From Magnetospirillum sp. SS-4 (GTDB lineage: Bacteria > Pseudomonadota > Alphaproteobacteria > Rhodospirillales > Magnetospirillaceae), in contig NZ_CACVCH010000047.1 in NCBI RefSeq assembly GCF_902729425.1, forward strand, positions 1 through 64,000: 64,000 bases of DNA. Reading direction: 5' to 3'. The notes under the pieces are model-generated. The model saw nothing but the letters and a program-made list of their open reading frames with translations. It searched no databases and was not told the origin of the DNA. Shown piece after piece: positions 5,187 through 24,926 of this stretch; position 1 is the stretch's first letter; the number at the start of each line of letters is the position of its first letter. The position numbers and the translations under genes were made by a program.

Positions 5187-5798
5187 TCAGGTACGTGGAA
5201 CCTGGGAGCAGCCGAACCTCCGATTCCGGTACGGCGGCTCGTCCTTGCTGAAGCTCTTGGCGAGGTAGGAGGCCCGCCAGATGGCATCACCGCATGCGGC
5301 TTGGTAGGCCTGCTGCTGCCGTATCAGTTCAGCCCCCTCCGCCTCGGACGAAGGCCGCCTCATCATGACGCTGCCGGTGGTCTTGTGGCCCATGCACCTG
5401 TTGTCGCAGAACTCGATGAGACCCTGATATTCACCACCGAGGATGCGATTCCAGATTTCCTCGGCCTTCTTGAGCAGGCCATAGGGGTTCTGCATAATGG
5501 CGCCGTCGATCAACAGCATGAGGTGCCAGTGCGGATGCTGGCTATCGATCCGCTCCCTGGCCCAAGCGTACTGGATGTCACGCAGTCGGCCCTTATAGGC
5601 CGCCTTCAACGACTTGATAAGGCTTGATATTTCCCGATTCCCTCCGTCATAGAGATAGCCCATCTTGGGGAAATGGACATCGAAGCGTATGAGGAGGACC
5701 TTATTGTGGTGTTCGTTTGCGTAATGGAGTTGGCGCTCCATGTGATTGATGATCCTGGTATCGTTGTCATCTGAATAGTACAATTTCAATTCTCCCAT
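5187..5798 (-). CDS. Inovirus Gp2 / YagK-YfjJ family Rep-like protein
   Basis: A 203-residue protein. The first start codon is a GTG at 5819 without a ribosome-binding site; the ATG at 5798, with GGGAG upstream, is preferred. Residues 83-98 contain RIDSQHPHWHLMLLID: 'H-x-H' followed by hydrophobics resembles the HUH metal site of rolling-circle initiators, and SYLAKSF (about 177-183) supplies a 'Y-x-x-K' motif typical of their nicking tyrosine. This layout is that of the inovirus Gp2/YagK-YfjJ family, found in filamentous phage remnants. No coat or export genes are nearby, so this is a remnant or satellite rather than an intact prophage. The segment is AT-rich. Confidence 0.7.
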   Translation of the reverse strand: MGELKLYYSDDNDTRIINHMERQLHYANEHHNKVLLIRFDVHFPKMGYLYDGGNREISSLIKSLKAAYKGRLRDIQYAWARERIDSQHPHWHLMLLIDGAIMQNPYGLLKKAEEIWNRILGGEYQGLIEFCDNRCMGHKTTGSVMMRRPSSEAEGAELIRQQQAYQAACGDAIWRASYLAKSFSKDEPPYRNRRFGCSQVPRT

Positions 5799-5817
5799 AT
5801 GCTTTTGATTAACTCCC

Positions 5818-5833
5818 ACATAACATATTATGT
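5818..5833. promoter_or_regulatory. AT-rich inverted repeat upstream of the Rep-like gene
   Basis: ACATAA-CATA-TTATGT is a perfect 6-bp inverted repeat with a 4-bp centre, 20 bp upstream of the preferred start at 5798. It could be an operator or part of a replication origin. The rest of 5,834-5,989 is AT-rich and carries no convincing gene. Confidence 0.35.
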
Positions 5834-5989: not shown

Positions 5990-6025
5990 AAAAAGACAAC
6001 GACCTGGATGAAGAACACCCAGGCC
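5990..6025 (-). terminator. Intrinsic terminator after the zinc-ribbon gene
   Basis: On the minus strand a 10-bp stem (6025-6016 with 6010-6001, two G-U pairs) closes a TTCTT loop and is followed by GTTGTCTTTTT. It lies 10 bp after the stop codon at 6036 and ends the operon of AAA+, DUF3150, VWA and zinc-ribbon genes. Confidence 0.75.
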
Positions 6026-6035
6026 GCTGATATCG

Positions 6036-6392
6036 TCACACCCTGAACTCCTCGCCGCATGCATGGCAGCGATAGAGCCCCAGGACCTTTTCATCGATCA
6101 CCGCACCAACGGCATGACCGAGGCGGGCACCCCAGACGAAGCCGATGAGAGCACCGACGATGGCTCCCATGGTCGATGCCGAGGGATGCCGGGCGACCAC
6201 CGTAGCGATGACGGCCCCGGTGGCGGCCCCTGCTTTGGCCCCGCTGACACCGGCGGTGATGACAGCCCCAACCACGCCACCGACCACCATGCCGGTCTTG
6301 CGGCCGGTGGACTGGAGTTCGGTGTTGAGCGAACCGCATTTGGGGCAGATCACCGGGAACGCCCGGTCCCCACACTGGTCGGTGATGATCAT
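6036..6392 (-). CDS. Zinc-ribbon and glycine-zipper membrane protein
   Basis: A 118-residue protein with a split zinc ribbon: CPKCGSLNTE near residue 16 and YRCHACGEEF at the C-terminus. Between them lie two Gly/Ala-rich hydrophobic stretches (about residues 34-62 and 74-100, with repeated G-A-x-x-G-A patterns) typical of glycine-zipper membrane insertion. The ATG overlaps the stop of the VWA gene by 4 bp (ATGA), so it belongs to that operon. The domain pairing suggests a membrane-anchored metal-binding partner of the upstream AAA+/VWA machinery. No named family is recognised. Confidence 0.65.
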   Translation of the reverse strand: MIITDQCGDRAFPVICPKCGSLNTELQSTGRKTGMVVGGVVGAVITAGVSGAKAGAATGAVIATVVARHPSASTMGAIVGALIGFVWGARLGHAVGAVIDEKVLGLYRCHACGEEFRV

Positions 6393-7882
6393 GCTGCGGC
6401 CCTCCCCCTGGTCAAGGCCTGGCCCAGCAGCGCAAACAGCGCCGAGGGCAGTTCCGCCAAGCTGGTGATGCTGGTGCTGCTGTGCGGCAGAAAACTCCCG
6501 ATCTGTGGCGCCAGGATGCCGAGGCCGTAGATCTCGACACCCAGGGCAAGACCGGCACGGATCGCTTCCCTAGTGGCCAACTGGTTGTCCGGGGAGCCAT
6601 CGGTAATGATTAGCACGATCTTGCGGTCCTGTTTCAGAGGGGCAAGCCGTTGCAGGACCCACCACATCGCCTCGGCGAGCGGCGTCTGACCACCGGTTGC
6701 GACCAGCAGATTGCCGTGGCGCTGGTCGCCATGCTGGAGAATCGGCACCACCGTTGGGCTTTTCGAGGCAGCCGGATCACCGGGGAACGCGGTGATGCCG
6801 ACCGAGATGCCAACCTGATCGAGGGCTTGGGCCAGAGCGGCGCAGCACTGACACGCCAAGCCGATCCGCTCCCGCATCGACGCCGAAGTGTCCAGCAGGA
6901 TATGGACGGCGGTGTTGATGGCCGGCTTGGGCTGATGGGTCAGGAATACCTGGGGATCGCCGATGGCGATGCCATAGGTGCGGCGCGGATCGATTCTTCC
7001 CCGGCGGGATGGCCGGCGCCGGACCAACCGGGTGGCCTGGAGCATCCCATGGAACCGGGCACGTAATCCGGCGGTGACGCGGGCGATGTCGCTGAGGTCC
7101 TGTCGGCTCAACGGCGAGAGCGGCTTCTCGCCGATGGTGGCTACCGCGCACCGTCCGACCGTTTCGGCTTTCTCCCCCAGGCTCCGCTTGAGAACCTGGC
7201 CCAGATCATCGGGCAGATCGCCCTCCACCGCGTCCAGCAGACTCCGCAGGGACAAGGCGGAATCGGTGGATGGCGGGATATCCCCCAGACACCGCACCAC
7301 TTGCCGTGCGTATTCCAGCGCGGCAAGGCTGTCGGGGCAATGGCCGCGCATGACGGTCAGGGTGATTCCCAGCCGATGGATCAGCCCAGGCCAATGACGG
7401 TCGAGGATTTCCGCTTCCGCCCGGCACAGCGGAATCAGGTCGGGGACACTCCAGCTTCGTACTGTCAGCAACAGCCAGTCGGTGATGGCGTGAACCGGAT
7501 GGTGCGGTTGGGATGGTTGCTGGAGGAACAGATGGCGGATCAGCCACTCGAAGTTCCGCCGGCATCCTGGAAAGATCGCTCCCAGTTTGGCTTCGACCCT
7601 CCAGTCCTCAAAGACGTTCCAGATATGCCGCTCAAGCGGGGTGATGGTCTCCTTGGCCATCGCGTCGAAGTCGGTGTGCCGGACATGGGCCGCCTCGTGG
7701 TCGATATAGCCCCGAACCAACCCCAGGAAGGTGGTGTCGCCGGTTGCCGGTAGGCTCGGCAGCCGGATGACCCGGCCGGTGGTGAAGGCCTCGGTGCCGC
7801 CGATCTCGACGGCGACACCGTAGGCACGCCCCAGCACATCAGCCAGCAAGGGCAGGCAATGGAGGATGGCTTGCGTGTTCAT
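6389..7882 (-). CDS. CobT-like protein: putative metallopeptidase fused to VWA domain
   Basis: A 497-residue protein. Near the N-terminus YIDHEAAHVRHTD (about 59-71) carries a zinc-protease-type H-E-x-x-H, followed by FEDWRVE (91-97). The C-terminal third is a von Willebrand A domain with a full metal site: DTSASM (331-336), Thr400 in GGQTPL and Asp428 in ITDGSPD. CobT-type VWA proteins work with CobS/MoxR AAA+ ATPases, and one is encoded two genes upstream. No chelatase large subunit or cobalamin gene is nearby, so a cobaltochelatase role is unlikely. The more likely reading is a plasmid or integrative-element AAA-VWA chaperone or protease of unknown target. It starts 11 bp after the DUF3150 pseudogene. 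Confidence 0.75.
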   Translation of the reverse strand: MNTQAILHCLPLLADVLGRAYGVAVEIGGTEAFTTGRVIRLPSLPATGDTTFLGLVRGYIDHEAAHVRHTDFDAMAKETITPLERHIWNVFEDWRVEAKLGAIFPGCRRNFEWLIRHLFLQQPSQPHHPVHAITDWLLLTVRSWSVPDLIPLCRAEAEILDRHWPGLIHRLGITLTVMRGHCPDSLAALEYARQVVRCLGDIPPSTDSALSLRSLLDAVEGDLPDDLGQVLKRSLGEKAETVGRCAVATIGEKPLSPLSRQDLSDIARVTAGLRARFHGMLQATRLVRRRPSRRGRIDPRRTYGIAIGDPQVFLTHQPKPAINTAVHILLDTSASMRERIGLACQCCAALAQALDQVGISVGITAFPGDPAASKSPTVVPILQHGDQRHGNLLVATGGQTPLAEAMWWVLQRLAPLKQDRKIVLIITDGSPDNQLATREAIRAGLALGVEIYGLGILAPQIGSFLPHSSTSITSLAELPSALFALLGQALTRGRAAA

Positions 7883-7893
7883 TTTCCGCCCTC

Positions 7894-8599
7894 CTACCAG
7901 AGACCAAGACTGTCGATTTTCGGCTCATCCGAAGGCAAAATATCGCCCTCGGCAAAGGGGGATTCCTCCTCTTCCAGGTCTTCCTCTTCGGGGAACGGGG
8001 TGGACGGATTGCCCATGGGCAGCGCCACCAGGCCCCGCAGGGTATCGTCCGGAGTCTGACCGTCGATGATCTTCTGACCATGCTCGACCAGGGCTGCCGG
8101 ATCACGCAGCAGGCAGACCAGGCCTTGCAGCATGACCAGATCGCCCCCGTTTATCGGTCCCTTGTCGGGAAGGCTGGTCATGGCGGCGTCCAGCAGATCA
8201 ACCACGGGCGTGACGCGCGGCTCAACGAAACTGAGCCCCGCCAACTTGATGCGCAGGCCCCGTAAGGGGGACAGCGCCTTGGACGACACCTCCATTTTGC
8301 CGGCAAAACTTTTGTGCCAAGCTTCGTCGGCGACCCTGGCAACCTCGCCGAACAGAGTGGTTCCCAGACCGGCGACCGCATCCAGCAACGGACGCTCGGC
8401 CTCGGTCTTGCCCACCTTCTTCCGGGTTGCACACCTTCTTTGACCCAAGCGAGGCGAGGTGTTCCGGCGGCAGATCGGGGGTAACGAAGTCGGCGGGGGT
8501 CAGCTTCCGGCGAGCCGACCAGATGTTGACGTCAAGCCGGATGGCGGTGAGCTGTTTCAGCACGGTGATATCGGTGGTGGGAGGATTGATGGAAGCCAT
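7894..8599 (-). pseudogene. DUF3150 family gene, disrupted by internal deletion and frameshift
   Basis: The 5' part starts at ATG 8599 (GGAGAA upstream) and encodes MASINPPTTDITVLKQ to SKKVCNPE, then goes out of frame. The 3' part continues in another frame as KKVGKTEAERPLLDAV to a C-terminal acidic tail (EEEDLEEEE) and SLGLW. DUF3150 proteins normally have a longer helical middle between these parts, so roughly 140 codons appear lost (estimated from memory of the family). The join at about 8,413-8,440 contains a 9-bp direct repeat (CACCTTCTT) offset by 19 bp. The 3' frame has no good start of its own. DUF3150 normally sits between the AAA+ and VWA genes, as here, so loss may have disabled the module. 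Confidence 0.65.
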
Positions 8600-8623
8600 G
8601 ATGGTGTTCTCCTTCAGACAATG

Positions 8624-8650
8624 AAAAACGGGAGCCGTTGCCGGCTCCCG
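8624..8650 (-). terminator. Hairpin with T-run between AAA+ and DUF3150 genes
   Basis: A perfect 9-bp stem (8629-8637 with 8642-8650) with a 4-base loop is followed on the minus strand by five T. It lies between the AAA+ stop (8685) and the DUF3150 start (8599), so it could attenuate expression of the distal genes or mark an mRNA processing point. Confidence 0.65.
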
Positions 8651-8684
8651 CTGTGGGGTGAATGTGGTGGATGGAAGACCGGCG

Positions 8685-9665
8685 CTATGCCGGCGGCGTG
8701 AACATCCGCTGTCCCAACTCATGCAGCAGGGCACGGGTGCTGCGGCAGGCACGAAAGCCAAGGGCGCGGTCCAGCGCGTGGATCACCGGCTGCACGCCCT
8801 GACGGGCCAGGGGTTGGAACCGCTGGGTCAGGCTGGCCCAGCGGATCAGGGTACGGGTCGAGAAGGTGACCTCGATGGTCTCGCCCGGCTGCTGGTTGTC
8901 ACCCTCTCCGATGAACAGCCGCCGCACCTGGTTGGCGTATTCGACCATGGTTTGACGCAGGGATTCCGGCAATGAAGGCGCCAGACGCTCCAGCAGTTTG
9001 GCTTCGGCGTCCGGTTCGGGATAGCCGACCTCGCAGAGCCAGAACCGATCCATGAAGGCGAGGTTCTGCCGCAGAGTGCCCTGATAGAGGCCCGATTCAT
9101 CGGAGGCACCGTTGGTGTTGGCGGTGGCGACGAAGCGGAACATGGGATGGGGTGGAATCACCTCGCCGCCATTTTCCGGCAGACACAGGGGCGCCCCGTC
9201 CAACACCCCGTTCAACCCGGCGGCGGTGGCCGGGTCGAGCAGATCGAGCTCGTTCAACAGAAACAGCCCGCCGAACTTCATCGCCAAGGCCAGCGGTCCA
9301 TACTGGAACCGCATGGACCCGTTCTCGACGGTGAGATGGCCGGCGAGATCGTTGAACTCCAACCGGCCATGGCCGGTGATATCGAACACCGGGTAATTGA
9401 GCTTGGCCGCCACCTGACGGATCAGGCTGCTTTTGCCCGCGCCCGTAGGACCGAAAACGTACAACGGATCGGAGGGAGTCATGATCCACACCACCAGTTC
9501 GCGCATGGCGTCATGGAACAGGTAGTCGGGATCGATGGCGGGGGTATGAATGCAGGGGGCGGCGAAGCCCTTGATCAGGCGGCCGGAGGCTTGGCCGCTG
9601 AACACTTCCCCGGCGTCCAGGTCGATGACCTGCAAGCGCCCGAGATCGGAATCAGAGTCCGTCAT
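8685..9665 (-). CDS. CobS/MoxR-type AAA+ ATPase
   Basis: A 326-residue AAA+ ATPase. The Walker A motif is FGPTGAGKSS (71-80), Walker B is GGLFLLNELDLL (132-143, with Glu-Leu-Asp), and ATANTNGASDESGLYQGT carries the sensor 1 region. These are hallmarks of the CobS/MoxR clade, which powers VWA-domain partners. The start ATG at 9665 has AAGGAGT 4 to 10 bases upstream. It heads an operon with DUF3150, the metallopeptidase-VWA protein and the zinc-ribbon protein. Sets of this kind are known from plasmids and integrative elements of Proteobacteria, but their role is not established. Confidence 0.85.
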   Translation of the reverse strand: MTDSDSDLGRLQVIDLDAGEVFSGQASGRLIKGFAAPCIHTPAIDPDYLFHDAMRELVVWIMTPSDPLYVFGPTGAGKSSLIRQVAAKLNYPVFDITGHGRLEFNDLAGHLTVENGSMRFQYGPLALAMKFGGLFLLNELDLLDPATAAGLNGVLDGAPLCLPENGGEVIPPHPMFRFVATANTNGASDESGLYQGTLRQNLAFMDRFWLCEVGYPEPDAEAKLLERLAPSLPESLRQTMVEYANQVRRLFIGEGDNQQPGETIEVTFSTRTLIRWASLTQRFQPLARQGVQPVIHALDRALGFRACRSTRALLHELGQRMFTPPA

Positions 9666-9768: not shown

Positions 9769-10101
9769 ATGATGGACGACGACCAGCAACCAAAGCCGCC
9801 GGCCGGAAAATCCGCCGTGTCGCCGCTTTGTCGGGACAAGCGGACGGCCCGGTTCGCCGCCGGTGAGCGGGTAAAGGAATTTCAGGCGTTCGAGCAACAG
9901 GCCAAGAAACGCCTGGTGATCCTGTTGGAAGCAGTTTCAAGGAATGGCCTGATGCTGTTGCCGAGCAACCACTTCGAGGCGCTGGAGGGTGATCGGAAGG
10001 GGCAGTTCAGCATCAGGATCAATCTGCAATGGCGGGTCTGTTTCGAGTGGCCCGACACGCACGACAGGCCATTCAACATCGAGATCACCGACTATCATTG
10101 A
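9769..10101 (+). CDS. higB: HigB-type mRNA-interferase toxin
   Basis: A 110-residue RelE-superfamily toxin. The family core is clear: RDKRTARFAAGERVKEF, then GDRKGQFSIRINLQWRVCF and the terminal IEITDYH. HigB cleaves mRNA at the ribosome and is neutralised by HigA. The N-terminus is about 20 residues longer than usual (MMDDDQQPKPPAGKS), and the ATG at 9769 has no good ribosome-binding site, so the true start may be further in. Toxin-first order and a 13-bp gap to higA are typical of higBA. Confidence 0.9.
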   Translation: MMDDDQQPKPPAGKSAVSPLCRDKRTARFAAGERVKEFQAFEQQAKKRLVILLEAVSRNGLMLLPSNHFEALEGDRKGQFSIRINLQWRVCFEWPDTHDRPFNIEITDYH

Positions 10102-10114
10102 CCGAGGCGACACC

Positions 10115-10441
10115 ATGACCGAACAGCGGCCCATTTACCCCATTCACCCCGGCACTATTCTGGCCGATGAATTGGCCGAGCTTCAGATGACGGCGGCGGA
10201 GCTGGCGCGCGAACTCCATGTTCCCTCCAATCGCCTCTATCAGCTCATTGCCGGTCGCAGGGCCATGACCGCCGACACCGCTCTTCGCCTGGAACAATGG
10301 CTGGGAGTTGAGGCGGCCTTCTGGATGAACCTGCAAAAGCGCTATGAGCTGGACCTTGCCGCCGAGCAGATCGGCGACGAGATCAAACGCACCATCCACC
10401 GCCGGGCATCGCCAACAGGTATTCAGGTGGCGGCGCATTAG
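10115..10441 (+). CDS. higA: HigA-type antitoxin
   Basis: A 108-residue XRE-type antitoxin. YPIHPGTILADELAEL is the conserved start of HigA proteins, and TAAELARELHVPSNRLYQLI is the helix-turn-helix. It binds and neutralises HigB and usually represses the operon. GAGG lies 7 bases before the ATG, 13 bp after the higB stop. The pair may stabilise the island. Confidence 0.92.
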   Translation: MTEQRPIYPIHPGTILADELAELQMTAAELARELHVPSNRLYQLIAGRRAMTADTALRLEQWLGVEAAFWMNLQKRYELDLAAEQIGDEIKRTIHRRASPTGIQVAAH

Positions 10442-10507: not shown

Positions 10508-11545
10508 TTAGTTGTCGTCAAAAATTTCCCGAAACTTTTTTTTGAACTCGACATACTCATCCCACGCCTTGGCATTTGCTTTGTGTATGTTTACTTCAAT
10601 GTACCCCTCCCGGAGACGCTCCAAAATTTGGTCAAATGCCCTGCGCATCTCCGTCCGAGCGCTGTTGATCTCGTTCCATGCCTGCTGGTGCTTGCCGGTG
10701 AGAGGCATATCCCCAGGATTGGTGAATACATGGAGGCCCGCAGGGGTGTCGTGATAGAGCTCGCCGTGGGATATCGCTGTCCGCCAGCCCAGGAATAATC
10801 GCTCAACTGCACCCTTGAGGACTGGGTCGTAGATGTTAAAGAGGCTGTTGGTGAAAACGCCCTTGAAATTTTCCCAGAACCACAATGCGCGGTCGGAGAT
10901 GCTGTGAGGTAGATCCAGTATGTGCTGATCCAGGGTTGGCGGATGGATCGCCGACATCAGCCAGTTCATGTTTTCGACGTCGTGATCGTGCTCAAGTTTT
11001 TCACGTGATAGTCCGCGCACTTCGGCCGGCCGTTTTGGATTCTTATCGAGGATGGCATTGAGCGCAGCATTGAGCAACTTTTCAAGGCGCCCTCGAACGG
11101 CCTTCGGGTCGTCAGATTGTGCAAATCGATAGCGACTTACCCGATGCTGGGCGAAGTCAAATGGGAGGTCTGCTGGAAACACTCCAAGTGCTTCGTTAAA
11201 CAGAAGAATTATCCGGTCCCAGCCCAGCTCGGCCACAGCGTAGCCAAGTTCATAGGTAACATTTGGGTTTGGGCAAGGTCGCTCAGCCCCTGGCAGGGTA
11301 ATGGTGGTGATGTCTGCAATAAAGATTTCTGCCTCCTGGATTTTCTCCAAGAGCTTAGAGACGATGTTGGGGCTCCCAGAAGCCTCTCTGGTGGCTTCGT
11401 CGGGGACAACCTCAATGTCAGCACGTTCAGCGGAAATCTTCTTCGCTGCCACATTGAGCGCGTCTCGAATGGCGTTCTGATTGGTTTTTCCAGGCGAATC
11501 GCTTTGCCACGAAAAGAAGGCGTGGATTTTTTGGGTCTCAGCCAT
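10508..11545 (-). CDS. TIR-like nucleotide-binding protein, probable defence effector
   Basis: A 345-residue protein starting at ATG 11545 (AGGAG 9 bases upstream); a longer frame upstream lacks a site. Residues 10-16 read FFSWQSD, followed by IEVVPDEATREASGSPNI, EIFIADIT and PNPNVTYELGYA with Glu99 in the position of the TIR catalytic glutamate. This is the pattern of bacterial TIR-like/CAP12-type domains, which hydrolyse NAD+ or bind nucleotides in anti-phage systems. The C-terminal 200 residues are helical and unrecognised and could be the sensor. It stands alone, convergent with higBA, and has no obvious partner such as a Thoeris ThsA. Its base composition is lower in G+C than its neighbours. 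Confidence 0.7.
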   Translation of the reverse strand: MAETQKIHAFFSWQSDSPGKTNQNAIRDALNVAAKKISAERADIEVVPDEATREASGSPNIVSKLLEKIQEAEIFIADITTITLPGAERPCPNPNVTYELGYAVAELGWDRIILLFNEALGVFPADLPFDFAQHRVSRYRFAQSDDPKAVRGRLEKLLNAALNAILDKNPKRPAEVRGLSREKLEHDHDVENMNWLMSAIHPPTLDQHILDLPHSISDRALWFWENFKGVFTNSLFNIYDPVLKGAVERLFLGWRTAISHGELYHDTPAGLHVFTNPGDMPLTGKHQQAWNEINSARTEMRRAFDQILERLREGYIEVNIHKANAKAWDEYVEFKKKFREIFDDN

Positions 11546-11757
11546 CCGAACGAACTCCTTCGGTTCGGTGATATCTGCAAGACGCCAGGTTCTTTTCTCG
11601 GCGTTTCCAACGCACGGCCGATCCGGCAATCATCGCACGTGTATGCCCGAGAATATCCGATACAAGTTGATTTAGAAGGCCGAAATGCGACCGCCCCGTG
11701 GCCCTCTTCCAGCCTCAGCGGGAAGCTGAGGCCGGGAGCATTCTTAGGAATTCACCA

Positions 11758-13050: not shown

Positions 13051-13710
13051 TCAGGCGGCGTAGCGCCACCACAGTTTGCGATTACCGTCCCAGCGGAAGC
13101 CGGCTTCCTGGAGGAAAGGCCGCTTATCGCGGACATTGCCCGAGGCGGTGATGCAGAGTTTTCCGTTGCCGGCGGTCACCGTCTGGTAGTTGATGCCGTC
13201 GATCTTGGGCAATCCCGCCAGGACATCGGTGGATTGAGTTGGCGGAGTGGGCGGTGGTGAATTGCGTCGTTCCGCCGCCCTGGACGATTTGCCCCGCTGC
13301 GGCGTCGCCGCCTCGGCATCGTCGTCCGCTTCACTGACCATTCCCACCAGGGTGGCGAGACCATATCGGCGAGCGTAAGTGAGTGCCGAGCCATAGCCCT
13401 GGGGATCGATCTTCGGCAGCGGCATCACCATCAGCGATGATTGCCACTGGCCGGAGTCACCATGGACCAGCTTGGTGACCAGCCCCAGGTGGCCGGCTTC
13501 AGCCGCCACCGGATACTGTGCGACCCAGATCGACTGGGCGATCAGGGCATCCCGGCATGCCTCGATCACCGAATTCAGCGAGGCATAGCGGTTCTTGACG
13601 AAGGGGTTTTCAGCATCTTTGCAGGCAGGCGTCAGGGCCTGCTGCACCCTCACCATCGCTTTCGCCAGTTCGGCGATTTCCGGCGACGACAAAATCTCCG
13701 AGGTCAGCAT
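13051..13710 (-). CDS. ERF-family single-strand annealing protein
   Basis: A 219-residue protein. The ATG at 13710 is chosen for its GGAGGAG site. The first 150 residues follow the ERF pattern: LAKAMVRVQQAL, AENPFVKNRYASLNSVIEA, and later GYGSALTYARRYGLATLVGM. ERF proteins anneal complementary single strands in phage-type recombination. A short C-terminal domain, RPFLQEAGFRWDGNRKLWW, resembles small add-on domains ending in F-x-W-x-x-x-x-x-x-W seen on plasmid proteins. It is first in an operon with the Cas4-like nuclease. Hairpins lie both before and after it. Confidence 0.85.
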   Translation of the reverse strand: MLTSEILSSPEIAELAKAMVRVQQALTPACKDAENPFVKNRYASLNSVIEACRDALIAQSIWVAQYPVAAEAGHLGLVTKLVHGDSGQWQSSLMVMPLPKIDPQGYGSALTYARRYGLATLVGMVSEADDDAEAATPQRGKSSRAAERRNSPPPTPPTQSTDVLAGLPKIDGINYQTVTAGNGKLCITASGNVRDKRPFLQEAGFRWDGNRKLWWRYAA

Positions 13711-13729
13711 TATCTCCTCCAACAACAAA

Positions 13730-13757
13730 CGCCCCACCTCGGTTGTGAGGGAGGGCG
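13730..13757 (-). other. Hairpin in the leader of the ERF gene
   Basis: An 11-bp stem with one mismatch and one G-U pair (13757-13747 with 13740-13730) and a 6-base loop ends 20 bp before the ERF start, just upstream of its Shine-Dalgarno. It is the third GC-rich hairpin placed directly before a gene in this recombination/AAA region. A second, AT-rich hairpin (TATATCA/TGATATA, 13800-13819) lies between it and the end of hsdR. Confidence 0.5.
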
Positions 13758-13880: not shown

Positions 13881-16800
13881 TCAAGCCGCAGCCCGGTCCC
13901 GCACCCCGTTCAGTATCCCGATGAGCTCAATCACCTCGCCCTCGCTGAACACACCAGCAACGCCCAACGGGTCGAGATCGGTGAAGGGGCTTTCGTACAG
14001 AAGCTCCGGTTCTACAATTCCCCGCTCGGTCAGATGGTCGATGACCATATTTAGGAATTCGAGTTGATTGGCTGTAAGCATGTGCGCCGCTGAGAATTGG
14101 TCGAAAGCCCGTTTGGCAGCCTCGCGGTCCAGCCCGACAATGGATCGGACAAATACGCCAAGACCGCCTTGCTCCTTCAGGCGATCAACATCATCGGCGG
14201 CAGCGATCCCAGCTTCGACGAAGACCCGCTCCAATTCCGCCAGGTCCGTCTTGGTAAGCGGCTCGTTTCGCCGCAGCCTTAGCACAGCGATGTGATTCTC
14301 ATTCGACTTCAGGAAGTGCCGTGCCTTTAGTCGGAATCGATCCATGTCGGTTCCGACACTGACGCCATTGACGGCAATCTCCGCCGCCTGCCCGATCTCG
14401 TCCTCAAAGTCAGTGTAGACGATCGGGCGCTTTTTCAACTCGATCAGCTTGATAAGCCCACGCAAACGGGTGCGCACGTTTTCGAGCATCGGCAGGGTGA
14501 CGTCCTGCCAGAACTCATCGGTCTGGAGGTCATGAATGAGCGCCAGTTCGGCGGCAACCATAGGCACATTGGCCATCTCCTCCAGCAGGCTGGCGATGTC
14601 GGCGATCTTTTTGCGCAGCCCGTCATAGCCCTTGTCAGAGCGCATCACGGCCAACTCTGTCTTGAGCACCAGAAGGTCGAACTGCTTCGCCGGGATGTCG
14701 TCATCGGTCAGGCTAGTGGGCAGCCCGGCAATCTCGTCGATCAGCTCGGATCGGGCCGCGAGATCGAGCTTCGTCCATGCTCCATCTTCGGCAAATTTTT
14801 CGATTAGCCGCCGTTTTGGCCGAACAAGAAAGTTTTCCAGGCTCATGCCGTCCACTTCGTCACGCAACCGCTTAACGATGGCGCTTCGTAGTTCGACGGC
14901 TGAATCGGCAGATGCATCGAATTCACCGATCAACTCGACCCGCGCCGTAAACAACAGCTTGGCCAGTGAAGAGCCGGTCGACCCATCAGCTAAATCGGGG
15001 TTCTGGTTGAAGAACTCGAAATTCTGGCAGAAATCGAAAATCGAGAACGACTCCTTATGCCGGCCTGGGCCGAACAGGTCCGGACGGAGGCGCGTTCCAC
15101 GCCCGATCATCTGCCAGAACTTGGTTTTGGAGCGGACGATCTTAAAGAAGACGAGGTTCACCACCTCGGGGACATCGATGCCGGTATCAAGCATGTCCAC
15201 AGATACGGCGATATGGGGGGATTTTTCGGGATTCGAGAAGTCGTCGATCAGGGACTGGGCATATTCGGTCTTGAAGTCGATGACACGAGCGAACTCGCCT
15301 TTGAGGTGCGGATAGTTCGCGTCAAACCGCTCGACGATGAACTGGGCGTGATCATGGCTTTTGGCAAAGATGATCGTCTTTCCGAGACGGTCGCCATCCG
15401 CCACCTTGAGCCCAAAAGTCATCAGATGTTCAAGCGCTTTGTCCGCGGTATCGATGTTGAACAGCCACTTGTTAACCGCCGCCGGCTCGACACGTGCAGG
15501 GACATTTCCATCCTCGTCCCATTCGATAGCGTCCCAGGCCTCCTTTTCCTCGTCGGGAAGATCGTCGTACTTGATGCCCTCTCGGGGGAATTTCAACGGC
15601 ACCGACACCGCCTTCGGAGGGACTAGGAAGCCATCCTTTACCGCTTCGTCGAGGCCATAGGCATCGGTAGGTACGCCCCGCTGAAGGCCGAACAGACCAT
15701 AGGTGTCGTGATCGACCTCCCCCTTCGGCGTGGCCGTCAATCCGACCAGCAGGCTGTCGAAATAGTCGAAGATGGCACCGTATTTTCGGTAAACCGAGCG
15801 GTGCGCCTCGTCGATGACGATGAGGTCGAAATGGCCTGGCCCGAACCGGCGTTTACCGTCCGCAGCCTCGTCGATTAACTTCATCATGGTCGGATAGGTC
15901 GAGACATACACCCGACCCTGAGTAGTCTTCTCGGTCACAAGATTGACCGGCGAAGCCGAGGGCAGGAACCGCTTGAAAGCTCCCACCGCCTGGTTCACCA
16001 AGGCCACCCGATCCGCCAGAAACAGGATGCGGCGAGCCCAGTTGGCCCGCATCAGAAGATCGGCGAGGGCGATGACGGTGCGAGTCTTCCCTGCCCCGGT
16101 CGCCATCACCAGCAGAGACCGTCGCAGGTTGTCCTTTTCGAACGCTTCTCCAACACGGCGGATGGCACGGGTCTGATAGAACCGCTCAACGATGGTCCGA
16201 TCGATGTCTGCCGCCGCAAGCGGCTTCAGTGTGGCACGGCGCCGAATAGCGAGTTCGAGTTCATCCTTGGTCAAAAAGCCCTGGATTTGGCGCGGGGGAT
16301 AGCGCTGGTCATCCCAAATCCAGTGGTCATAGCCATTGGTGTAGAAGATCACCGGACGCTGCCCGAAGCGGGCTTCAAGGCAGTCGGCATAAAGCTTGGC
16401 CTGCTGCTGGCCTACACGGGGATCACGCTTGGTGCGTTTGGCCTCGACAACCGCCAACGGCCTGCCGTCATCACCCCACAGCACATAATCGACGAAGCCG
16501 TCACCACTCTCGTTGGGCATCCCGACCACCGGGAATTCGCGATCCCTCTCTTGGTCCAACTGCCAACCCGCCTCAAACAGCAGAAGGTCGATGAAGGTAT
16601 CGCGGGTGGTGGCCTCGTCATAATCGTGTAGGTCCGAGACCTTGGCATTGGCAGCCTTAGCCTTGGTTACTTCGGCCCTCAGAGCGGCGATCTCGGCTTC
16701 CAGCTTCTGGCGTTCGGTCTCGCTGGCCAGCCGTTTGGCCTCGGCCTCGTCCTTGGCCTTAACCGCTTCGGTCAGTTGACGGGCGGCTTCCTGAAGTTGC

Positions 16801-17255
16801 TTTAGCGAGGTTGCCGAGATGGCGGCATTGCGCGGCAAGGCGTCTGGGGAGAATGACAGTGTCGGATCGGGCTTGGCCCCCCGCGCATAGGTGCGCACCA
16901 GCCAGTACGAGACATGGAAAAGTTCGCGAAGGGCCGTTGCCGCACTGACTAGTGCCACCGGCCGCGCCTCGTGGACAGCGACGTTGCCAAGGTCTTTGAT
17001 GATGCGGGCTTTGGCGACCAGCTTATCGCCGACCAGCCGACGAAAGGTCGGCTCGTGGATGCGGGCAGACAGGGTTGTCTCGTAAGGGTTTCTCAGGCTG
17101 CTGTCATGGCGATAGAGCCAGTTGACGATGACCTCAAGGGCGAAGCGGGCATAGAAGCAGGCCGCGCGAGGATCGGCGAGGGCCAGACTCTCAGCACGGC
17201 CTGCGTGTTCGTAGACCTCGGCAAATTCAGGTTTGAGAAAAGCAAACTGCGACAT
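13881..17255 (-). CDS. hsdR: Type I restriction enzyme, R subunit (EcoEI-like)
   Basis: A 1,124-residue motor-nuclease subunit. In order: a DUF4145-like domain (about 15-120), a coiled coil (150-205), the PD-(D/E)XK nuclease with FVDYVLWG (Asp256) and VVEAKR (Glu271-x-Lys273), Walker A ATGAGKTRT (385-393), the DEAH box in IVIDEAHRS, GLTATP, further helicase motifs, and the EcoEI_R_C-type C-terminus ending in LTERGIVEPELLYESPFT. It translocates DNA and cuts unmodified invaders in complex with HsdM and HsdS. The length is normal and all motifs are intact. It is last in the hsdM-hsdS-accessory-hsdR operon; AGGGGGC precedes the start. Confidence 0.95.
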   Translation of the reverse strand: MSQFAFLKPEFAEVYEHAGRAESLALADPRAACFYARFALEVIVNWLYRHDSSLRNPYETTLSARIHEPTFRRLVGDKLVAKARIIKDLGNVAVHEARPVALVSAATALRELFHVSYWLVRTYARGAKPDPTLSFSPDALPRNAAISATSLKQLQEAARQLTEAVKAKDEAEAKRLASETERQKLEAEIAALRAEVTKAKAANAKVSDLHDYDEATTRDTFIDLLLFEAGWQLDQERDREFPVVGMPNESGDGFVDYVLWGDDGRPLAVVEAKRTKRDPRVGQQQAKLYADCLEARFGQRPVIFYTNGYDHWIWDDQRYPPRQIQGFLTKDELELAIRRRATLKPLAAADIDRTIVERFYQTRAIRRVGEAFEKDNLRRSLLVMATGAGKTRTVIALADLLMRANWARRILFLADRVALVNQAVGAFKRFLPSASPVNLVTEKTTQGRVYVSTYPTMMKLIDEAADGKRRFGPGHFDLIVIDEAHRSVYRKYGAIFDYFDSLLVGLTATPKGEVDHDTYGLFGLQRGVPTDAYGLDEAVKDGFLVPPKAVSVPLKFPREGIKYDDLPDEEKEAWDAIEWDEDGNVPARVEPAAVNKWLFNIDTADKALEHLMTFGLKVADGDRLGKTIIFAKSHDHAQFIVERFDANYPHLKGEFARVIDFKTEYAQSLIDDFSNPEKSPHIAVSVDMLDTGIDVPEVVNLVFFKIVRSKTKFWQMIGRGTRLRPDLFGPGRHKESFSIFDFCQNFEFFNQNPDLADGSTGSSLAKLLFTARVELIGEFDASADSAVELRSAIVKRLRDEVDGMSLENFLVRPKRRLIEKFAEDGAWTKLDLAARSELIDEIAGLPTSLTDDDIPAKQFDLLVLKTELAVMRSDKGYDGLRKKIADIASLLEEMANVPMVAAELALIHDLQTDEFWQDVTLPMLENVRTRLRGLIKLIELKKRPIVYTDFEDEIGQAAEIAVNGVSVGTDMDRFRLKARHFLKSNENHIAVLRLRRNEPLTKTDLAELERVFVEAGIAAADDVDRLKEQGGLGVFVRSIVGLDREAAKRAFDQFSAAHMLTANQLEFLNMVIDHLTERGIVEPELLYESPFTDLDPLGVAGVFSEGEVIELIGILNGVRDRAAA

Positions 17256-17267
17256 GCCGATAGCCCC

Positions 17268-18098
17268 CTATTGCCCCCGATAGGCGATATCCGAATCAAG
17301 TTGATGCGCCAGATATGGAGTGAACCCTGCGAGTACCACCGTCATCGCGACCATATCCTTGATTTCTATGTCCCGCAGAGCGGTTGCAGGGGTTCCGCCA
17401 TGTCGAATACCGGGATAGCTGCACGTGAATTTATAAAGAGCCTTCACCGCTTCCTTGATCTTGTCGTGCGGCCATGAACCGACTTGGTCACAAATCGCAC
17501 CAAGGGTATTCGCGGCAACGCCAGGGCTGTTCTGGCCGAGGGCTTCCAGCAGGTTGACCTGCTTCTGGATGCAGATCCTGATTCGCCGCGACGAAGAATC
17601 CGTGCTGAGATCACGCAACGACTCCTCGAAATCCACCATCAGGGAATGAAAATGAGGATCACGTAGCGTCACGGCTTTAAGTTCGCGAATCAAACCGGCA
17701 AACACGCCTGACAGGGTGGGATTGAGGGCAAAGGGCCGGCGAAGATCGTAGCGCAGGCTGAACTTCGATAGGAATGCCTCGACGAGGAGGAAGTAGCGGT
17801 TGGCAAGGGCGTCGCCTCCCAGATCGTCCACAACGCCATGAGCTCGCTCCAGGAACTCCACCACCGCCCGTTCCCCCTGGAAGATATCGGCTTTCATCTG
17901 CTGAAAGGTCGCACGGCCTTTATCCGGATTCGCAGCGATTTCAGCCAGACTCTCGGGCGAGGAAGCCACAATGAAAGCGGGCGTAAATTCGCGATAGAGT
18001 TCCGAAAACATGTCTTTGGGTGCGCCGGCATGCTTCGCCAACGGCGACCATATGTCGCCCCAGGTTTCTGACCAGACAGGGAGGAACTCTCCACGCAT
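17268..18098 (-). CDS. Accessory protein of the type I restriction operon
   Basis: A 276-residue helical protein of no firmly recognised family, lying 3 bp after hsdS and 12 bp before hsdR, so it is part of the operon. GGGGGAG precedes its start. The C-terminal segment FTCSYPGIRHGGTPATALRD, then MVAMTVVLAGFTPYLA, resembles the C-terminal domain of some abortive-infection (AbiJ-like) proteins, where a short I-R-H-G motif is conserved. Roles such as control of HsdR activity, or a back-up suicide effector when restriction fails, are inferences from position only. Codon use matches hsdR rather than the AT-richer hsdS. Confidence 0.65.
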   Translation of the reverse strand: MRGEFLPVWSETWGDIWSPLAKHAGAPKDMFSELYREFTPAFIVASSPESLAEIAANPDKGRATFQQMKADIFQGERAVVEFLERAHGVVDDLGGDALANRYFLLVEAFLSKFSLRYDLRRPFALNPTLSGVFAGLIRELKAVTLRDPHFHSLMVDFEESLRDLSTDSSSRRIRICIQKQVNLLEALGQNSPGVAANTLGAICDQVGSWPHDKIKEAVKALYKFTCSYPGIRHGGTPATALRDIEIKDMVAMTVVLAGFTPYLAHQLDSDIAYRGQ

Positions 18099-18101
18099 TG
18101 G

Positions 18102-19301
18102 CTACAGCTCCCCCCGAAAGGCGCGATCTTGAAGGGATGCAAAAAGTGCATTAACTGCCGCCGAGTGCGCCGAATGGCAAGCTTTTACCTTCTCAATCGC
18201 GGAGATAGAATCTGCAAATTTCTTCTGCAACGGATATGGCGGCACGAGAAGTGGAAAACCTCGCAATTGGGTCATGTTGATGGATGCTATGCCAGTCGTT
18301 TGCTTGGCAGATCGAAGGAAATATGCCTTTCCTCTTTGGCTTCCAACGAGCCAATTTAAGAATATAGGATGAACTCGGCTTGAATTGAGCCGAACCCTGA
18401 AAATATGATTCTGATGGATACACTCTTCAATCGCATCGTTCCAAAGCGTGCCACGCCCAAGTTTATCAGGATCGCCGCCCTCAGTCAGAAGGAGGTCATC
18501 CTTCATCAATCGATATCGACGAATTTCATCATCCGTTGCCTCGATTGTCTTGATGGCCTTTAGGTTGAGAGATTTGTCTTGGACATTTGCCACAGCAAGG
18601 TAGGGAACCTCTCTGGTCACACTTCCATTCAGCTTACGCCCTTTTGTAATGCCAGATACGAGTTCGGCTACATCGCCGAGACACAAGTCCTCATCCCAAT
18701 TTCTTGGGTTTAATACGGGGTCTCCGAATAAATCAAAGAAGACAGCCTGAGCGAGGCTATCCAGCATTACTAATGTCTCGCGCCGCTTTCGCCTCAAATC
18801 GTCAGCGCGATCAAGAATTTCCGCAAGACGGCACTGTTCGTTAATATCCGGGACCGGGATTTCGAGGTCATCGATGTGTTCGTTCCTCAGATTGTTTATA
18901 TTCGCTCCAGCGGCTAACGACGACATCTTCTTACGATATGCTGGCGTTCTGAAGTAATGGCCAAGATATCTGGCATTAACGCCAGGGCCTGGACGAATAA
19001 CTTTGCAGAAGGCCCCAAAAGTTCCATTAAAGTTTGCTGCAAGCTGCGCAGCTTTCCCGACAACGGACAAGCTACCGCTTGATGCAGCTATAACTATATC
19101 TCCAATAATTAATTTCTGACGTTGGGACACACATTTTTTATTCACGTAAATCAGTCCATCAAACTCTACGCCATCGTCTGTGACATTATTTGCCCGCAAT
19201 AGGGGCAAAAAACCCTCTCCCGGTGACATAGAAATATCTGATTTGGCGTAGGAAACGCCGCGCAGCTGCTCTGCAATGTCGGAAATTCGCTCAAGTCTCA
19301 C
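18102..19301 (-). CDS. hsdS: Type I restriction enzyme, S (specificity) subunit
   Basis: A 399-residue subunit with two target-recognition domains (about 1-140 and 195-340), each followed by a helical spacer: INEQCRLAEILDRADDLRRK for the first and LQKKFADSISAIEKVKACHS for the second. It reads the bipartite recognition sequence; the sequence itself cannot be deduced here. The start overlaps the hsdM stop by 4 bp. The DNA is distinctly AT-richer than hsdM and hsdR, as is common for exchanged specificity genes. Confidence 0.93.
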   Translation of the reverse strand: MRLERISDIAEQLRGVSYAKSDISMSPGEGFLPLLRANNVTDDGVEFDGLIYVNKKCVSQRQKLIIGDIVIAASSGSLSVVGKAAQLAANFNGTFGAFCKVIRPGPGVNARYLGHYFRTPAYRKKMSSLAAGANINNLRNEHIDDLEIPVPDINEQCRLAEILDRADDLRRKRRETLVMLDSLAQAVFFDLFGDPVLNPRNWDEDLCLGDVAELVSGITKGRKLNGSVTREVPYLAVANVQDKSLNLKAIKTIEATDDEIRRYRLMKDDLLLTEGGDPDKLGRGTLWNDAIEECIHQNHIFRVRLNSSRVHPIFLNWLVGSQRGKAYFLRSAKQTTGIASINMTQLRGFPLLVPPYPLQKKFADSISAIEKVKACHSAHSAAVNALFASLQDRAFRGEL

Positions 19302-20839
19302 TGCATCGCCTCCTCAAGTGCCTTTAGCTCCTTGGCAATATCAGCCTCGAACGATTTCAACTCGGCGATGATCTTGGCCGGCGGCTCGTGCGTTACCTCC
19401 TCGTACGCGATCTTCTTATATCTGTTGAGCGAAATGTCATACGTGCCGCTAGCCGCTATATCCGCCTTCGGGATGCAGAAGCTCTGCGCCGTGCGAGGGC
19501 GATCTCGCTCAGCGTCATCGCGTTCCTCCCAGCGCATCAGCACGTCGGGAAGGTTGTTCTTGGCGTGCTCTTCATCGGTCAGTTCCTCCGCAGGTGCGGC
19601 CCCCCTCTTTTCCTCTGGCAACAGAGGCTGGCGCTTGTCGTCCAACGACCAGCCATCGGCCACGATATCGTAGAACCACACTTGCTCGGTGCCGCCAACG
19701 CCGGTCTTGGTAAAGACCAGGATGGCGGTGGAGACACCGGCATAAGGCCGGAACACACCGGCCGGTAGCGAGATAACCGCCTCCAATTTGTGATCCTCGA
19801 CCAGCATCCGCCGAAGAGTCTTATGAGCGGTGGAGGAGCCGAACAGCACGCCGTCGGGTACGATCACCGCCGCCCGGCCGCCGACCTTCAAAAGACGCAG
19901 GAACAGGGCGAGGAAAAGAAGCTCGGTCTTCTTGGTTTTCACGACCTGTTGCAGGTCCTTGGCGCAAGCCTCGTAATCGAGCGAACCGGCGAATGGCGGA
20001 TTGGCCAGGACTAAGCTGTAGCGCCCCACTTCACCGGCATGGTCCTCCGCCAGGGAATCGCGGGCTATAATCGCCGGGTTCTCGATGCCGTGCAGAATCA
20101 TGTTCATCGACCCGATCCGCAGCATGGTCGGATCAAAATCGAAGCCGTGGAACATACCCTCATGGAAGTGGCTACGTAGCGCGGGATCACGCATGACTTC
20201 GGGATGACGCTCTCGGAGATACTCACCTGCCGCAACCAAGAAACCGCAGGTTCCGGAGGCTGGGTCGCAAATGACGTCACTCGGCTTCGGCTCGGTCAAC
20301 TCGACCATCAACTGGATGATGTGGCGGGGGGTGCGGAACTGGCCATTCTGACCAGCGCTGGCGATGACGCTCAGCATGTATTCATAGATATCGCCCTTGG
20401 TGTCCCGATTCTCCATCTGCACGTTATCCAGCTTCTCGACCACCTTGGCGAGAAGGGCCGGCGACGGAATGCCAAGGCGGGCGTCACGCATGTGCTGTGA
20501 AACGGCAGTCGTTTCCCCGGCGACGGTGCGGATGAAGGGGAAGACGTGCTCGTCAACCACCTTGAACATTTCGCGTGGCTCGAAGGTCTTGAACCGCGAC
20601 CAGCGGAGGTCATCAAATGGTCTGCCGCGCTCATCCGCCCCCTCTGGGAAGATGCGCCGCGCCATGGGCTTGTTCAGGGTCGCCGCTTTGCGCTCCTCGA
20701 CGGTATGGAGTTCATCAAGGCGCTTGATGAACAGGAGGTAGGTGATCTGCTCCATGACCGCGAGCGGGTTGGACAACCCGCCGGACCAGAAATCATTCCA
20801 GATGCTGTCAATTTGATTGCGAATATCGCCCACGAGCAT
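19298..20839 (-). CDS. hsdM: Type I restriction enzyme, M (methyltransferase) subunit
   Basis: A 513-residue N6-adenine methyltransferase. The N-terminal helical domain starts IDSIWNDFWSGGLSNP. Motif I for S-adenosylmethionine is CDPASGTCGFLVAAGEYL and the catalytic motif IV is NPPF in LANPPFAGS. A C-terminal helical tail follows. It protects host DNA and forms the core of the restriction complex. GTGGGG lies 6 bases before the ATG. It is only 48 bp downstream of the WYL regulator gene on the same strand, so expression from the regulator's promoter is likely. Confidence 0.95.
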   Translation of the reverse strand: MLVGDIRNQIDSIWNDFWSGGLSNPLAVMEQITYLLFIKRLDELHTVEERKAATLNKPMARRIFPEGADERGRPFDDLRWSRFKTFEPREMFKVVDEHVFPFIRTVAGETTAVSQHMRDARLGIPSPALLAKVVEKLDNVQMENRDTKGDIYEYMLSVIASAGQNGQFRTPRHIIQLMVELTEPKPSDVICDPASGTCGFLVAAGEYLRERHPEVMRDPALRSHFHEGMFHGFDFDPTMLRIGSMNMILHGIENPAIIARDSLAEDHAGEVGRYSLVLANPPFAGSLDYEACAKDLQQVVKTKKTELLFLALFLRLLKVGGRAAVIVPDGVLFGSSTAHKTLRRMLVEDHKLEAVISLPAGVFRPYAGVSTAILVFTKTGVGGTEQVWFYDIVADGWSLDDKRQPLLPEEKRGAAPAEELTDEEHAKNNLPDVLMRWEERDDAERDRPRTAQSFCIPKADIAASGTYDISLNRYKKIAYEEVTHEPPAKIIAELKSFEADIAKELKALEEAMQ

Positions 20840-21834: not shown

Positions 21835-21941
21835 CGCACCGGCAGACCGGGTCAACGGGAAACGATCCTTTCGACAGCCGACCGATGCGCATCCCAGGTG
21901 CGTCGCCGATCGACGAACTTCATGAAAGGACCTTCAAGATC

Positions 21942-23198: not shown

Positions 23199-23659
23199 AA
23201 TCCATCGGGGCGCAGGTGCATGTCATGCACCTGCGCTGGCCGAACTTCGAGGTCCATAAGCGCACCACCGACAAAGTCATCTGGATCGGCGATCTGGTCG
23301 GTATCGAGCGGGCCTATACTCTGTGGGTCGAGTACGGTCTGCCGAGAAATCCGCCGAGCGATCCAATGTTTCGACGTTTCCCTCTGGTCCGGGTGGTGTC
23401 CCCTCGTCTTGAGCTCCAATGGGATGCGCCCGAAGAAGCGCCGCTACCGCACGTCTATTTCAGCGAACCGGACATTCGCTTGTCGCCGCTCTGTCTTTTC
23501 GATCCAGCAGCCGGGGAATGGGACCATTCCGATACCATTGCCCTGACCACCATTCCTTGGGCGGCCGATTGGCTGGCCTGTTACGAAATTTGGCTGGCCA
23601 CAGGACGCTGGCAGGGTGGTGGGCGACACGCCGAGAATCCGACGGAGAAGGCTTCATGA
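23183..23659 (+). CDS. E2-like ubiquitin-conjugating-type protein of type II CBASS
   Basis: A 158-residue protein with the bacterial E2 pattern: MHLRWPNF near the start, PHVYFSEPDIRLSPLCLFDP with candidate catalytic Cys104, then TTIPWAADWLACYEIWLATG and a Gly-rich tail (GRWQGGGRH). Stand-alone E2 proteins without E1 or JAB partners define short type II CBASS, where the E2 forms a thioester with and conjugates the C-terminus of the CD-NTase to raise its activity. No E1 or JAB gene is present here. Start and stop overlap the neighbours (16 bp and 4 bp), giving tight stoichiometric coupling. Confidence 0.85.
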   Translation: MAKKVKSIGAQVHVMHLRWPNFEVHKRTTDKVIWIGDLVGIERAYTLWVEYGLPRNPPSDPMFRRFPLVRVVSPRLELQWDAPEEAPLPHVYFSEPDIRLSPLCLFDPAAGEWDHSDTIALTTIPWAADWLACYEIWLATGRWQGGGRHAENPTEKAS

Positions 23660-24850: not shown

Positions 24851-24926
24851 TGGTGCCCAGGGGCGGAATCGAACCACCGACACTGCGATTTTCAGTCGCA
24901 TGCTCTACCAACTGAGCTACCTGGGC
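24851..24926 (-). tRNA. tRNA-Phe (GAA)
   Basis: A 76-base tRNA with encoded CCA. The acceptor stem pairs GCCCAGG with CCTGGGC, the D-loop reads AGCTCAGTTGGTAGAGC, the anticodon loop is CTGAAAA (anticodon GAA), and the T-arm contains GGTTCGATTCC. Its 3' end faces the defence island, the usual geometry for integration of mobile elements. The frames that cross it on either strand are artefacts. Confidence 0.97.

Follow-up and report, generated by a model that had tools for sequence, protein, structure and literature searches.

A 64-kb stretch of DNA from Magnetospirillum sp. SS-4 (contig NZ_CACVCH010000047.1 of GCF_902729425.1, positions 1-64,000; hereafter the window) contains a set of minus-strand genes that, by open reading frame (ORF) analysis and profile searches, encode a CobS/MoxR-type AAA+ ATPase, a DUF3150 protein, a protein that joins an HExxH motif to a von Willebrand factor A (VWA) domain, and a zinc-ribbon protein. 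Our favored reading of these sequences, which we hold with moderate confidence, is that the window genes are a degraded version of a module carried by mobile elements, one that would serve the element's own recombination or replication as an ATP-driven unfoldase or chaperone-peptidase. The module itself is known from mobile elements, where it is unexplained, and what is new here is its ERF/RecE-like, zinc-ribbon-bearing, degraded form. A sequence-only reading had placed the module at 6036-9665 and proposed an undescribed machine for stress or defence. The named genes do lie within that span, but the conserved unit is longer and adds genes for an ERF-family annealing protein and a RecE-like nuclease upstream. 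Furthermore, the block forms part of the backbone shared by conjugative plasmids, beside ssb, Bet/RecT and exonuclease genes, which argues against a stress or defence machine, and jumbo phages are already reported to carry a MoxR-vWA pair that includes an N-terminal metallopeptidase (PMC7824862), so the term "undescribed" does not hold.

Predicted catalytic residues of the ATPase and the VWA protein

The ATPase matches AAA_5 (E=1.1e-17) and CbbQ_C (E=2e-10) in Pfam and phrog_249 (E=2.2e-54) in PHROGs, which bears out its initial description as CobS-type. Its Walker motifs are complete (Walker A is GPTGAGKS at residue 72), and G72, G77, K78 and E139 are invariant in 20 sequences. The AAA+ region is accompanied by a CbbQ-type C-terminal domain and an adjacent VWA partner with a complete metal-ion-dependent adhesion site (MIDAS), and the solved relatives of the ATPase are Midasin and CobS.

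The VWA protein matches the CobT N-terminal family (E=1.9e-8) and the CobT_C VWA family (E=1.6e-10), and it carries, as first claimed, both an HExxH motif (HEAAH at residues 62-66) and an intact VWA metal site (D331, S333, S335, T400 and D428). Residues H62, E63, H66, N89, E92, D93 and E97 are identical in 35/35 representative homologues, a set that was retrieved with an HExxH-containing pattern and is therefore biased for that motif. The same seven residues are identical in 18/18 genomic and phage sequences, as well as in three plasmids and two phages, and the N-x-x-E-D...E downstream of HExxH is invariant. For the MIDAS, D331, S333 and S335 are present in 35/35 homologues and T400 and D428 in 34/35, with a gap in one row. 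Because these residues are identical across the 35 homologues, the 18 genomic and phage sequences and the plasmid and phage sets, the motifs are not a product of chance. The HExxH and the downstream Glu ligand of a gluzincin-type candidate zincin are present, with the invariant E92 as the predicted third-ligand Glu. With its Walker motifs, HExxH...E and MIDAS residues conserved, the combination of ATPase-driven remodelling with a metal-dependent protease stands as a prediction. Two VWA proteins of related genomes (L009 and L010), which we label NorD/CoxE-like independently of any search, carry HxxAH without the catalytic Glu, which suggests a decayed protease site.

A single-chain AlphaFold2 model of the VWA protein (mean predicted local distance difference test score, pLDDT, 88.5) was compared with known folds, with rows within 1 Z counted as tied. 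The VWA half aligned with the Rea1/MDN1 MIDAS domain (Z 21.7; root-mean-square deviation, rmsd, 2.4 over 201 and 2.1 over 196 residues) and with NorD (Z 20.5; rmsd 5.2 over 225 residues; Foldseek E=9.2e-11). NorQ-NorD and Midasin (Rea1/MDN1) thus share with the module an AAA ring and a MIDAS VWA domain, at a VWA-domain Z of about 20-22, but they serve other client systems, and the NorD-like proteins described above lack the catalytic Glu. The N-terminal domain is modelled as two short strands, a helix bearing HExxH (50-69) and a helix bearing E92 (82-103), a predicted topology that would suit a gluzincin. The whole-protein fold search hardly reached the first 120 residues, and zincin families were absent from the VIA-align fold list, which was filled by VWA-domain matches. 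AcrIIA26 was considered as a relative of the N-terminal domain and rejected, as its E=0.05 was taken as chance.

Gene order in conjugative elements and phages

A scan of GTDB genomes with the VWA-protein alignment yielded 80 loci; the search pattern contains HExxH, so these loci are no independent test of that motif. Non-redundant counts refer to 35 clusters at 70% identity, formed from loci with a VWA reading longer than 400 amino acids (others, such as L060, were dropped). Profile searches of the 80 loci revealed the order ERF-NUC-AAA-DUF3150-VWA, in which NUC is the RecE-like exonuclease gene, in Rhodospirillales-like and Desulfovibrio-like genomes; the NUC family occupies the place between ERF and AAA in many alpha- and deltaproteobacterial loci. 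The VWA gene is often followed by a zinc-ribbon gene, and in three alphaproteobacterial loci by a single-stranded DNA-binding protein (SSB) gene instead. Gammaproteobacterial loci, which we regard by their gene order as SXT/R391-type elements, are arranged as ssb-Bet-exonuclease-AAA-hypothetical-DUF3150-VWA-toprim; RecT replaces Bet in this arrangement in two marine MOBH plasmids, and an IncC plasmid has AAA-hypothetical-ssb-bet-exo-DUF3150-VWA. Relatives of the VWA protein were found by tblastn in 1922 plasmid records, of which 979 are predicted to be conjugative.

The AAA gene lies upstream in all 27 non-redundant loci that could be scored, and DUF3150 is present in 32 of the 33 that extend 450 bp or more upstream (the exception, L106, is genuine). 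Among the 24 loci, the window being one of them, that reach 6 kb or more upstream, an annealing-protein gene is upstream in 19, specifically ERF in 16, and a recognised nuclease in 16. This frequency of ERF is set against its rarity in general (20/398 genomes of a phylum sample). The zinc-ribbon gene had been proposed as a membrane anchor belonging to the module. A gene of the same architecture does recur directly 3' of the VWA gene, but in just 11/33 non-redundant loci (window included), and its absence from the remainder goes partly against the sequence-only reading and makes a membrane anchor optional at best. The module occurs twice in locus L066, as divergent copies that both include a zinc-ribbon gene. 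A tree of VWA proteins contains a RecT clade (100/100), an ERF-bearing clade (100/98) and a Bet-bearing group (80/92) that is not firmly supported. As ERF, Bet and RecT each track their own part of the tree, the annealing protein has been exchanged beside a block that stayed in position.

We also performed a check anchored on DUF3150, which is independent of both the HExxH motif and the VWA protein. DUF3150 was detected in 10/398 genomes of the phylum sample (9 over the cut-off) and 4/385 of a class sample (2 over), with the Magnetospirillum genome itself in both. Exclusion of weaker matches under the cut-off left ten regions from nine genomes. A VWA protein is encoded in nine of the ten, and eight of those nine have HExxH.

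The closest described arrangement is the ssb-bet-exo recombination region of SXT/R391 and IncA/C (IncC) elements, in which AAA, DUF3150 and VWA genes likewise lie near an annealing protein and an exonuclease. The window differs in having ERF with a RecE-like nuclease, a zinc-ribbon gene and a broken DUF3150, in lacking an adjacent ssb or toprim gene, and in a VWA protein of about 30% identity. The SXT genes at the corresponding place are core genes of unknown function according to PMC2791158, which reports that deletions of bet, exo, s067, s068 and s070 reduce transfer 10-fold or less; from gene order, we take s067 to be the ATPase. In E. coli, RecET or lambda Bet/Exo outperform SXT Bet and Exo alone about 50-fold (PMC3118119), which leaves room for helper proteins, and SetCD activates the SXT recombination operon (PMC4344509). 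This published work is compatible with a recombination role and not decisive. A different task at the same place would be to disable a host exonuclease such as RecBCD, in place of lambda Gam. The module adjoins exo-bet genes, and SXT, which has no gam, may carry a gene for an exonuclease V inhibitor of unrelated type (PMC2786100), but the alternative offered in that same account is that RecBCD matters little, and we consider a counter-nuclease role unlikely.

Phage relatives were collected in two ATPase-anchored scans of viral contigs, the best 80 matches of each giving 160 loci. Among these best-listed loci, a VWA relative is present in 141 and none was found in 19; the N-terminus of the VWA protein is cut by the contig end in 27, which leaves 114 with the N-terminus in view. 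HExxH is kept in 110 of these 114 proteins, and in 5 of the 110 (L148, L171, L189, L193 and L200) the HExxH domain has an ORF of its own, next to and upstream of the one for the VWA domain. Together with the eight of nine DUF3150-anchored loci, this retention is the opposite of the outcome that would have refuted the sequence-only reading, namely His-Glu-His residues not conserved in homologues. At 70% ATPase identity, the viral loci form 86 clusters, of which 66 have the N-terminus in view: 63 with HExxH, one mixed and two without. In 81/86 clusters, a flanking gene matches one of 13 baits, which are replication or recombination genes sought within the fetched flanks with structural genes excluded; the clusters are related by descent, so the 81 are not independent events. 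DUF3150 is present in 1/86.

The T4-like cyanophages syn9 and S-PM2 show the order gp47-gp46-peptidase-CobS-gp45-gp44, with small ORFs between some of these genes. Their "peptidase" resembles the window protein in carrying HEVGH...NVxEDARIE (generally HExxH...NVxEDxRIE) and a MIDAS beside a CobS-like ATPase, but the pair is highly diverged, has no DUF3150 match and adjoins gp46/47 and gp45, not an annealing protein and exonuclease. In SSU5 and RHEph10, the ATPase-protease pair lies between ligase and DNA polymerase genes. The jumbo-phage MoxR-vWA pair, which we compared by description only, likewise consists of an ATPase and a VWA protein with an N-terminal metallopeptidase; in the account of that pair in PMC7824862, no DUF3150 or annealing protein is described, and virion assembly with proteolytic processing is proposed. 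That proposal, for which PMC7824862 cites an archaeal virus MoxR-vWA required for tail assembly, raises the possibility that the proteins are a virion assembly or protein-processing chaperone in phages that conjugative elements carry for another assembly task. However, the gene set is found on conjugative plasmids next to recombination genes, and the immediate neighbours in syn9, S-PM2, SSU5 and RHEph10 are replication or recombination genes, although the survey baits themselves excluded structural genes. We consider this explanation improbable.

Since the AAA and VWA proteins are homologous to CobS and CobT and share their domain order, the pair could in principle be a cobaltochelatase CobST that borrows a host CobN, and PMC8651126 proposes a boost of cobalamin by viral CobST and regards "peptidase" as a mistaken label for phage cobT. 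Yet the window proteins score far below the NCBIfam CobS and CobT equivalog cut-offs (79 versus 558.55 bits and 40.4 versus 759.05 bits). An ordinary CobT is encoded on another contig of the same genome, with RLRYHDDSVH in the motif region in place of HExxH, and a second cellular CobT likewise lacks HExxH, unlike the window protein and unlike the phage "CobT" proteins counted above, which retain HExxH...ED. The neighbours of the module are recombination or replication genes, and no linked cobalamin gene was detected among the selected longer ORFs of the window that were scanned, which agrees with the initial description of an operon devoid of such genes. We reject cobalamin biosynthesis on the grounds of the sub-cut-off scores, the separate CobT and its replaced HExxH position, and regard a cobalamin function as highly improbable. 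The conserved HExxH...E site argues against the view of phage cobT put forward in PMC8651126, and phage "cobST" probably does not have a cobalamin function, contrary to that proposal.

Several results weigh against the favored reading. The main one against a strict link to recombination is that an annealing protein is present in only 3/8 long DUF3150-anchored regions (5/8 if SSB is counted); when selected ORFs from four or five other regions were scanned against Pfam and PHROGs, no further annealing protein was detected. In addition, 5/24 non-redundant loci lack a recognised annealing protein, and profile models found ERF, Bet and RecT in 0/86 viral clusters within the fetched flanks. SXT Bet and Exo are active in the absence of the module (PMC3118119). 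Genes for DNA handling are often grouped together in mobile elements, so that their adjacency is by itself no proof of shared work. As for the predicted peptidase, the HExxH motif is degraded in four viral proteins (L144, L158, L196 and L203) and replaced by an HExxxH-like variant in the DUF3150-anchored L128, from which peptidase activity may be dispensable in some relatives. Finally, a profile of the N-terminal domain matched no solved protease among solved chains (best E=0.05).

The window copy and its genomic surroundings

The features of the window copy are listed in Table 1. The VWA and zinc-ribbon genes share a 4-base overlap, the gap between DUF3150 and VWA is 11 bases, and a terminator-like hairpin lies past the last gene (the pattern scan found 5 such hairpins versus 2.8 expected in shuffles), which together make it plausible from the sequence that AAA, DUF3150, VWA and zinc-ribbon genes form a single operon. 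The zinc-ribbon protein has the arrangement CxxC, glycine zipper and CxxC, in keeping with its initial description as a zinc-ribbon glycine-zipper protein, with weak Pfam matches. A strong hairpin followed by T at 8627-8652 (minus strand), between the ATPase and DUF3150 genes, is a possible attenuator, and a YagK/YfjJ C-terminal/Rep-like protein is encoded directly 3' of the module at 5187-5819 (minus strand).

Table 1. Features of the module and its upstream recombination genes in the window.
Feature	Coordinates	Strand	Evidence
ERF-family single-strand annealing protein, 228 aa (amino acids)	13051..13737	-	PF04404 E=6.2e-32; Erf-like phrog_2324 E=1.1e-34
RecE-like exonuclease (NUC), 405 aa	11758..12975	-	RecE-like phrog_434 E=0.0012 (weak); no Pfam match
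CobS/MoxR-type AAA+ ATPase, 326 aa	8685..9665	-	AAA_5, CbbQ_C, phrog_249
DUF3150 pseudogene	7894..8599	-	PF11348 remnants; start at 8599 is our reading of the frame translation
HExxH (candidate gluzincin) plus VWA/MIDAS protein, 497 aa	6389..7882	-	Pfam, conserved residues, AlphaFold2
Split zinc ribbon around a glycine zipper, 118 aa	6036..6392	-	CxxC...CxxC; weak Pfam matches only
Terminator-like hairpin after the zinc-ribbon gene	5997..6029	-	Pattern scan

DUF3150 had been counted as a member of the module, and matches to PF11348 confirm its presence, but the gene is not intact. PF11348 positions 1-50 and 155-257 fall in different frames, and the middle is absent. Two blocks that match the intact same-genus homologue (L030, 331 amino acids) are 16 bases apart in the window versus 315 in L030, which indicates that about 300 bp are missing, through either a real deletion or an assembly error. 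Because DUF3150 is broken, this copy of the module is probably inactive or altered, as judged from its reading frames; the remaining three genes are open. A structure model of DUF3150 (pLDDT 81.3) had no match in the PDB at E<=0.001, and its fold matches are viral predicted proteins only, one of them named DUF3150, so no function can be deduced from the fold. Kinship with DpdF was rejected, since the broken piece matches DpdF weakly in PADLOC (E=0.00085) and the intact relative does not. Our literature search returned nothing on DUF3150, nor on IncC together with DUF3150/VWA.

The ERF and NUC genes are 2.1 kb from AAA, across inserted genes. These encode a TIR-like protein (10508-11629, minus strand; PF10137 at 22.4 bits, slightly under the cut-off of 24.7) and a HigBA-like pair on the strand opposite to the module (9769-10441, plus strand), which comprises a HigB-like toxin (PF05015 E=5.5e-10) and a helix-turn-helix partner. 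The guanine-plus-cytosine (GC) content, in 2-kb steps, is 0.51-0.65 over the first 24 kb versus 0.63-0.70 at 24-40 kb, and a tRNA-Phe gene (24851-24926, minus strand) lies on the border of the lower-GC stretch. The low GC and the tRNA gene make it probable, from sequence composition, that the module sits in a genomic island, with the tRNA-Phe as the probable integration site. The 3' end of the tRNA occurs once genome-wide, without a second repeat, and the island extends to the contig end, which is window position 1. A B12-dependent ribonucleotide reductase is encoded about 22 kb from the module.

The island also contains type I restriction R, S and M subunits (13881-20839, minus strand), with a 276-amino-acid PDC-S32-like gene between R and S, and a CBASS-like pair (cyclic oligonucleotide-based anti-phage signalling system; 21885-24687, plus strand) that consists of an oligonucleotide cyclase (PADLOC Cyclase E=4.9e-147) and a patatin-like phospholipase effector (E=2.2e-119). 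This company, and the existence of MoxR-vWA ternary conflict systems (PMC7159879), could suggest that the module is an anti-phage or inter-element conflict system of that kind. However, the operon proteins match none of the third components VMAP, iSTAND or FtsH above the cut-off (bpMoxR reached 16.7 of 27 bits), and the catalytic residues and gene order are conserved, not diversified. In PADLOC, the intact DUF3150 relative, VWA and zinc-ribbon proteins had no match and AAA was weak only (best mad8, E=0.0017), and for lack of clear profile matches we reject a PADLOC-listed defence system. The type I restriction and CBASS genes are units separate from the module, for which a defence role is not supported and in our estimation quite improbable.

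Proposed mechanism and implications

In MoxR-vWA pairs, a peptide captured at the VWA metal site is reshaped or released by the ATPase ring (PMC7159879); the addition of a conserved protease-type domain to this scheme suggests unfolding with cleavage. By analogy with the solved NorQD, CobST and Midasin, the CobS/MoxR-like ATPase of intact relatives probably assembles into a ring and acts together with the zincin-VWA protein. The VWA metal site would bind a target protein by an acidic residue or a peptide, ATP hydrolysis would pull or reshape the captured target, and the HExxH...E domain would cleave or hold it. DUF3150 is a probable adaptor peculiar to the form found in conjugative elements. 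From gene order, this work would be done on DNA that undergoes annealing or end resection, where it may amount to removal or turnover of proteins on DNA processed by the element's annealing protein and exonuclease or, in phages, by replication and recombination proteins. Candidate targets are proteins that sit at DNA ends or forks, but also the annealing protein, SSB or a host nuclease. A broader proposal, which we advance tentatively and regard as possible though doubtful, is that the AAA+/zincin-VWA machines are one family of DNA-transaction protease-unfoldases that clear the way for end-resection recombination by stripping or degrading the proteins bound at DNA ends or forks, DUF3150 being the adaptor in the conjugative-element branch.

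The block forms part of the backbone of conjugative plasmids and SXT-like elements, in which the corresponding genes are core and, in PMC2791158, without an assigned function. The comparison yields a concrete hypothesis for them, that of a recombination-linked unfoldase-protease with identified predicted catalytic residues. Furthermore, because a protease-type site that two cellular CobT proteins have lost persists in the phage protein, phage "cobS" and "cobT", which are widely counted as auxiliary metabolic genes (PMC11705849, PMC8651126), may be misread. If the broader proposal is true, a large family annotated in phages as cobS/cobT or as a lone peptidase would be a functional prokaryotic counterpart of the protease-plus-unfoldase removal of DNA-bound proteins.

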